A stretch of 64,000 bases of DNA, taken from Fimbriimonadaceae bacterium. Lineage in GTDB: Bacteria > Armatimonadota > Fimbriimonadia > Fimbriimonadales > Fimbriimonadaceae. The notes under the pieces are model-generated. The model saw nothing but the letters and a program-made list of their open reading frames with translations. It was not told where the DNA came from and did no database searches. The position numbers were made by a program, and so were the translations under genes. Position 1 is the first letter of the stretch. Each line of letters starts with the position of its first letter. This document shows positions 37,037 through 37,736 of the stretch, piece after piece. The stretch lies in contig CP075365.1 of assembly GCA_019454125.1 (NCBI GenBank), positions 2,536,218-2,600,217 of the forward strand, written 5' to 3'.

Positions 37037-37088
37037 TGGAGTGCGGAGGCACAACTCCGCTATGGATTAGCCGGCTTGACGGCTAATC
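37037..37088 (+). repeat. REP element, left copy (two hairpins)
   Basis: Hairpin 1 is GCGGAG-6 nt-CTCCGC (37043-37060). Hairpin 2 is GATTAGCCG-GCTTGA-CGGCTAATC (37065-37088). The unit is repeated in inverted orientation at 37686-37736. The first 34 nt are identical at 30 positions, with three of the four changes in the loop. The stop codon of the transposase gene lies in hairpin 2. Confidence 0.85.
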
Positions 37089-37706
37089 TCTCGGCCTCAA
37101 CGGCTCAAAATCATCGAGCACGCGGACTTGGTCAGTCTTGAACGACTGAACAGTCTTGACGTAAGGCCGTCGCTCTCCAAGGTGGGAGAATGCGAGCGCT
37201 GAGCACCAGCGGTAGTCCTCGGCACGGCTTACAAGTCCATGCCGCACCGGGTTCTCTAGGACGTAACTCAACCTGGCATATCGACTCTTTTCGTCGTCAA
37301 GGAACGTGTCCCAATACTGGTACCAGACTTTGCGACCTGGGCAGTTGTCGGTCGCGTTCACTTGCCGCGCCGTCTGTGTATGGAGGTGTGACAAAAACTT
37401 CGCCAAGGTTTCCGGACGCTCTGTCTCAGCAACAAAGTGATAGTGGTTCGAGAAGACCGCGTAAGCTTCAAGTTTCCAAGCGTACCGATCGGCGAGCGTC
37501 AAGAGGCTATCAACGACAAACGTCAGAAGGACCGCGGTCGGGAAAAAGTGTTGCTTCTTGTAGGTGCCCGCTGTGACAATATAGGATCCCGGCTTGTCCA
37601 GGTAGTGAGTGGGTGCGTGCGGGTACCTCCTTAACCCTTGGCAACGTCTTTTGCTTCGTCCGTCATAGGCGAAACCGTACCCGACATTGGGCGTCAAGCC
37701 GCCCAA
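37083..37706 (-). CDS. REP-associated tyrosine transposase (RAYT, Y1/HUH family)
   Basis: Single-strand DNA transposase-like protein of up to 207 aa. The HUH metal motif is NHYHFV, preceded by YAVFS. The C-terminal catalytic-tyrosine region is YARLSYVLENPVRHGLV, typical of RAYTs. The gene is framed exactly by two inverted REP elements; its stop and its TTG start (37706, or 37697) lie inside the hairpins. A strong AAGGAGGT sits around codon 20 with no ATG/GTG/TTG start at suitable distance, so the real start is unclear. RAYTs are usually domesticated single-copy genes that mobilise REPs, not insertion sequences. Confidence 0.85.
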   Translation of the reverse strand: MGGLTPNVGYGFAYDGRSKRRCQGLRRYPHAPTHYLDKPGSYIVTAGTYKKQHFFPTAVLLTFVVDSLLTLADRYAWKLEAYAVFSNHYHFVAETERPETLAKFLSHLHTQTARQVNATDNCPGRKVWYQYWDTFLDDEKSRYARLSYVLENPVRHGLVSRAEDYRWCSALAFSHLGERRPYVKTVQSFKTDQVRVLDDFEPLRPRD

Positions 37707-37736
37707 TCCATAGCGGAGTCTAGCCTCCGCACTCCA
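37686..37736 (-). repeat. REP element, right copy (inverted)
   Basis: Same organisation as the left copy on the other strand. Hairpin 1 is GCGGAG/CTCCGC (37713-37730). Hairpin 2 is ATTGGGCG-TCAAGC-CGCCCAAT (37686-37707). The hairpin-2 stem differs from the left copy at two base pairs, and both changes are compensated. Confidence 0.85.

Follow-up and report, generated by a model that had tools for sequence, protein, structure and literature searches.

Organisation of the locus

The window (the whole stretch of 64,000 nucleotides analysed here, C1:2536218-2600217 in a 2.65 Mb single-contig genome, G000) contains at positions 37038-37735 a RAYT-type (REP-associated tyrosine) transposase gene enclosed by two inverted two-hairpin REPs, with an M20 amidohydrolase gene on one side of the unit and an AAA ATPase gene on the other. 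The RAYT / TnpAREP frame (37083..37706, minus strand) comprises 207 codons from TTG to TAG, the conserved part starting at about codon 27. An earlier note on this DNA had described a RAYT gene framed by two inverted REPs, and this arrangement is borne out by sequence and alignment.

Both REPs, which were also recovered by DNA folding and as covariance model matches, follow the same plan of 50-51 nt: the tag GGAGT is followed by hairpin 1 (6 bp, 6-nt loop), and after TATGG comes hairpin 2 (8 bp, also with a 6-nt loop). The left REP (37038..37087, plus strand; tag GGAGT at 37038-37042, hairpin 1 at 37043-37060, hairpin 2 at 37066-37087) reads GGAGT GCGGAG gcacaa CTCCGC TATGG ATTAGCCG gcttga CGGCTAAT. 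The inverted right REP (37686..37735, minus strand; tag GGAGT at 37735-37731, hairpin 1 at 37730-37713, hairpin 2 at 37707-37686) reads GGAGT GCGGAG gctaga CTCCGC TATGG ATTGGGCG gcttga CGCCCAAT. The earlier description of the stems proved exact on direct reading: hairpin 1 has the same stem in both REPs, with three differing positions in its loop, and in hairpin 2 two stem pairs are exchanged between the copies (A-T to G-C and C-G to G-C), both with compensation, around a constant loop. Folded as single-stranded DNA, both REPs form two hairpins (z -4.3 and -5.2), a result equalled by none of 200 dinucleotide shuffles. The pattern TGCGGAG-N(2-8)-CTCCGC is found in the 64 kb window at the two REP sites only, with 0.12 occurrences expected.

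The RAYT protein

The protein carries the HUH motif NHYH at residues 87-90 (37437..37448, minus strand), invariant or nearly so in relatives, and the catalytic tyrosine Y148 within YVLENP (37263..37265, minus strand), invariant in relatives. These correspond to the HUH motif and the single catalytic tyrosine in Y---NP of a class 2 RAYT, Y---NP being the class 2 Y1 signature (PMC6006769). The NCBIfam model REP_Tyr_transpos (NF047646) scores the window RAYT at 81.0 bits, a narrow pass of its cut-off of 80, and the relatives at 79-98 bits; Pfam Y1_Tnp stays slightly under its cut-off. The top solved structural match of the predicted structure (mean pLDDT 83.8) is 4ER8, the E. coli TnpAREP-REP complex (E 1e-8, 15% identity), followed by IS608 and ISDra2 TnpA. 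Sequence motifs and the structural model thus place the protein in RAYT / TnpAREP, class 2 Y1 HUH.

Start and stop of the window's RAYT

The stop codon TAG (37083..37085, minus strand) falls within hairpin 2 of the left REP, in its 3' arm. At the other end, hairpin 2 of the right REP contains both in-frame TTGs, the first (37704..37706, minus strand) in its 5' arm and the second (37697-37695, minus strand) in its loop, and there is no in-frame ATG, GTG or TTG between the right REP and the conserved domain. Orthologs start at an ATG just upstream of the conserved PHAP. Alignment with L014 and L015 places the ATG that matches the start of the same-genus ortholog at 37664..37666 (minus strand), where it is out of frame and opens an 11-codon frame to TAA. 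With no in-frame start before the domain and the orthologous ATG out of frame, the window RAYT possibly yields no protein, and since the counterpart of that ATG persists out of frame, the apparent start inside the hairpin is perhaps just the product of a frameshift.

Three claims of the earlier note therefore need some adjustment. Possible starts do lie inside the hairpins, in the literal sense that the two TTGs are there, but they may lack function; the proposed overlap of mRNA ends with the transposition substrate is established for the stop codon only; and the description of a 'complete, self-contained' REPtron is weakened by the out-of-frame start region, which makes the protein doubtful.

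The start may have been lost through a small indel located between the ancestral ATG and the domain; the gene would then be a decaying copy and the REPs here relics of past activity. We give this possibility somewhat less than an even chance. Besides the displaced ATG and a stretch between REP and conserved domain that offers no usable start, it is favoured by residues 1-33 of the TTG reading, which are unstructured in the model (pLDDT below 50), and by the small number of REPs, five in the own genome versus 29 in a sister species. On the other hand, the remainder of the frame is uninterrupted and keeps every catalytic residue, in-frame TTG starts exist, and the assembly may contain a base error. 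The window RAYT may thus be start-defective, by mutation or assembly error, and inactive, or its true start may lie inside the REP.

Conservation and covariation of the hairpins

About 20 RAYT orthologs (39-59% identity) were found in 85 genomes of the family, which belongs to the phylum Armatimonadota, mostly flanked by like hairpins in inverted orientation, so that the hairpins are indeed kept beside orthologous genes, a point on which the earlier reading depended. Across these orthologs, the foot pairs GCG/CGC of hairpin 1 are invariant and the tag nearly so, and the next three pairs are free yet always compensated (100% of cells paired; 44 double changes versus 10.5 in shuffles). Stem quality had played a part in choosing the hairpins of this set. 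The test was for this reason run again with only the tag and foot fixed, and 184 of 216 inner pairs formed, versus 99.4 +/- 6.1 in shuffles (72 distinct matches among those listed). In the window's REP type, covariation is seen in hairpin 1 and hairpin 2 alike. The earlier note had taken the stem covariation as a sign of selection on the fold; two pairs alone are thin evidence, but the relatives, in the family and across phyla (see below), make it strong.

When the 85 genomes were divided by RAYT presence, ignoring kinship, the median hairpin count was 17.5 with a close RAYT and 0 without. Several RAYT-bearing genomes score few hairpins because longer loops escape the pattern, and four family genomes carry at least six copies but no RAYT match. 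One genome, G022, has about 40 GGAG-type REPs and no RAYT match at E <= 1e-5; its transposase may have been lost or fall into an assembly gap, or the REPs may be mobilised by another protein.

It could be argued that the hairpins are kept chiefly for an RNA or regulatory role, such as forming transcript ends, stabilising mRNA or repressing the RAYT start, the link to the transposase being secondary. The stop codon and the TTG starts within the hairpins would agree with this, as would the known involvement of REPs in mRNA stability and termination (PMC3733652). Yet the conserved GGAGT is on one strand only and is placed in a fixed order with respect to the gene, with both REPs facing tag-outward; the RAYT mRNA reads one REP tag-first and the other tag-last, and an RNA role therefore leaves their orientation unexplained. 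Given also that copies occur in frame inside genes and that the tag beside the RAYT gene is conserved across phyla, we consider a primarily RNA-based explanation improbable.

Dispersed copies and movement

With a covariance model of the full REP, we obtained five matches in the own genome; the same-genus genome G053 gave 29, G004 14 and G072 59. Further copies of the hairpins in the genome, whose absence would have spoken against the earlier reading, are thus present. Their number in the own genome is far under the >100 usual for REPs; in several relatives, cognate REPs are dispersed in 14-59 copies, as in REPtrons.

A flavoprotein gene of the own genome (L009 1501-1575; C1:1900485-1900553) contains one REP in frame, together with 24-nt partial copies in tandem. 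Nine relatives align on both sides of this site without the insert; they have nothing in its place, except for the sister species, where a short unrelated sequence is found. The tandem units are joined exactly as CGC|TGGAGT, which hints at cleavage at C^T on the 3' side of hairpin 1, while no single junction form dominates at other loci. A further own-genome copy is in frame in the variable linker of a two-domain paralogous protein. This two-domain family (L011 1067-1897 and its paralogs) has 18 matches in G000 and 35 in G053, and its linker gathers palindromic repeats in frame. In-frame copies are already known for GTAG REPs and for the Rickettsia RPEs (PMC3733652).

The unit as a whole also varies in its position. 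The M20 and AAA genes lie side by side in G053 and G029, with no REPtron between them, and the RAYT of G053 sits on a different contig from this site, so the REPtron has been gained, lost or moved within the genus. None of the window's neighbour genes was seen at the 21 other RAYT loci of the family (flanks up to 1.5 kb).

The absence of the unit from this site in G053 and G029, the common protein superfamily and the hairpins at both ends would also suit an IS200/IS605 insertion sequence whose ends are formed by the inverted hairpins. We regard this as very unlikely, as the tyrosine signature is Y---NP instead of the class 1 Y----Q, the NCBIfam IS200 model gives no match at E <= 0.001 whereas REP_Tyr_transpos passes its cut-off, the REPs are inverted and are dispersed without the gene, and the sole other Y1 gene of the own genome is only 31% identical.

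We are highly confident that the locus is best explained as a REPtron, i.e. a RAYT (TnpAREP) gene with an inverted cognate REP at each end, in which the RAYT most likely spreads the REPs via a folded single strand. The REP is a tandem of two short hairpins. Hairpin 1 bears GGAGT as its 5' tag and has three basal pairs, GCG/CGC, that are fixed; hairpin 2, in the window's type, is preceded by GGA, one further variable base and T. By analogy with E. coli and Stenotrophomonas TnpAREP, from which single-stranded binding, cleavage and strand transfer are carried over here, the RAYT, a Y1 HUH endonuclease, would bind the REP as folded single-stranded DNA and would recognise the GGAGT tag and the GCG foot of hairpin 1. 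Its tyrosine would cut adjacent to the hairpin and join the hairpin elsewhere. REPs would in this way be propagated as short non-autonomous elements, some of them landing in frame within genes.

A GGAG tag across phyla

The conserved GGAG tag, which stands in place of GTAG and is spread across phyla, was missed by the earlier note and is the more interesting part of the system. We took 80 RAYT relatives from a protein-alignment scan, DNA playing no part in the choice. They come from Acidobacteria, Planctomycetes, Verrucomicrobia, Kiritimatiellales, Chlamydiae, WOR-3, KSB1, Omnitrophota, Hydrogenedentes and others, according to the titles of records that are mostly MAGs, such that single assignments may be wrong. 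GGA[G/C]TGC occurs <=300 nt from the RAYT in 78 of the 80 (reversed-motif control, 12), and an inverted motif pair is present at 53 of 80 (control, 0). At these loci, chosen by protein only, 241 of 255 cells paired in the hairpins when the inner pairs were left free, versus 147.5 +/- 5.5.

Hairpins following GGAG near clade RAYTs numbered 227, versus 16 in reversed sequence, and those following GTAG, GTGG or CGTC were not above control (CGTC, 17 versus 25 reversed). The inverted pair was absent at eight more distant RAYTs of the same family. The REPs lack the GT[AG]G at the 5' foot of the hairpin that marks the GTAG superfamily, having GGAGT instead, and equally the CGTC at one end that marks the CGTC superfamily. 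A reading of GGAG as a shifted GTGG tag (the right REP reads GTGGAG) was rejected, as the preceding base varies between T, C, A and G.

A candidate for a residue that reads the tag may be found in the protein. In E. coli TnpAREP, W94, Q95, E100, H101 and R104 have been discussed as contacting or reading GTAG (PMC6006769, PMC8266576). The residue that follows VW in the window's clade aligns with Q95 and is H, Y, F or W, never Q, in 97 of 97 members scored; the other RAYT of the own genome keeps WQ. NHYH was part of the peptide patterns behind the cross-phylum set, and its conservation in this set is therefore partly built in, whereas the residue after VW was absent from the patterns. These alignments fit a joint change of tag and reader residue relative to the GTAG lineage. 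We lean, with some reservation, towards a separate, phylum-spanning REP lineage, with the tag TTTGGA[G/C]T-GCG-variable stem-CGC-TTT, a RAYT clade with NHYH and VW[HYFW], and tag and putative reader changed together, that would form a third tagged REP superfamily.

Comparison with known systems

The GGAG-tagged REPtron lineage is a variant of the known RAYT/REPtron kind. With known RAYT / TnpAREP genes and REPtrons (Nunvar 2010, PMC2817692; 4ER8; PMC8266576) it has in common the Y1 HUH protein with Y---NP, two inverted REPs, REPs elsewhere in the genome, compensatory stem changes and 4ER8 as best structural match. It departs from them in having GGA[G/C]T for GT[AG]G and H/Y/F/W for Q95 and, in the window's type, two hairpins per REP and a low copy number in the own genome. 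The GTAG and CGTC superfamilies (Di Nocera 2013, PMC3733652) likewise consist of short tagged palindromes with clusters, in-frame intragenic copies and REP-supplied stop codons, but neither tag is enriched before hairpins near the window's RAYT clade, and CGTC repeats were reported without a transposase partner (PMC3733652), whereas the element of the window has one. That REPs show compensatory changes, occur in frame and contain stop codons is thus prior knowledge (PMC2817692, PMC3733652).

Compared by motifs alone, TnpAREP subclass 2.8 (Quentin 2018, PMC6006769), with its published NHYH and W[YH], comes closest to the window's clade; unlike the latter, it is reported from Cyanobacteria, with long REPs tagged GT[AG]G and with an N terminus rich in proline. 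The class 3 Y1 proteins with CnGA-footed hairpins (PMC6006769) share the presence of non-GTAG hairpins by a Y1 gene and, in part, the occurrence in Planctomycetes and Acidobacteria, but have Y----Q and NHVH where the window's clade has Y---NP or NA and NHYH.

Searching Rfam with the REP gave no match at E <= 1. In the literature searched we found no description of a GGAG tag or of an Armatimonadota REPtron, in agreement with the earlier remark that such a unit is 'little described for this kind of organism', a statement that is itself beyond proof. No published mention of GGAGTGCG as a palindrome or repeat was found in a search outside figures and supplements, so an earlier description is possible.

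REP elements are among the commonest bacterial short repeats. In the literature examined, the biochemistry of RAYT recognition is that of proteobacterial proteins with GTAG-tagged REPs, and a deep lineage pairing a different tag with a different tag-contacting residue would offer a natural test of how the tag is read. On a practical level, the GGAG motif provides a simple DNA handle for mobile hairpins in phyla with scarcely annotated repeats.

Other repeats in the genome

The second, distant RAYT of the own genome (31% identical; G000 C1:1376029-1376322, L001 1255-1917, minus strand) is flanked on both sides by a palindrome family of its own, GCCTCGGCACG-NNN-CGTGCCGAGGC. This pattern has 30 own-genome places with <=3 mismatches, and the reversed control has none. 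Another palindrome-like repeat, CCCTCACCCC...CCCTCTCCC...GAGGGG, lies inside coding regions (L001, about 2222-2270; L009, about 1200-1260), where it is read in frame as LAPLGERG-like or PSGGEG-like peptides.
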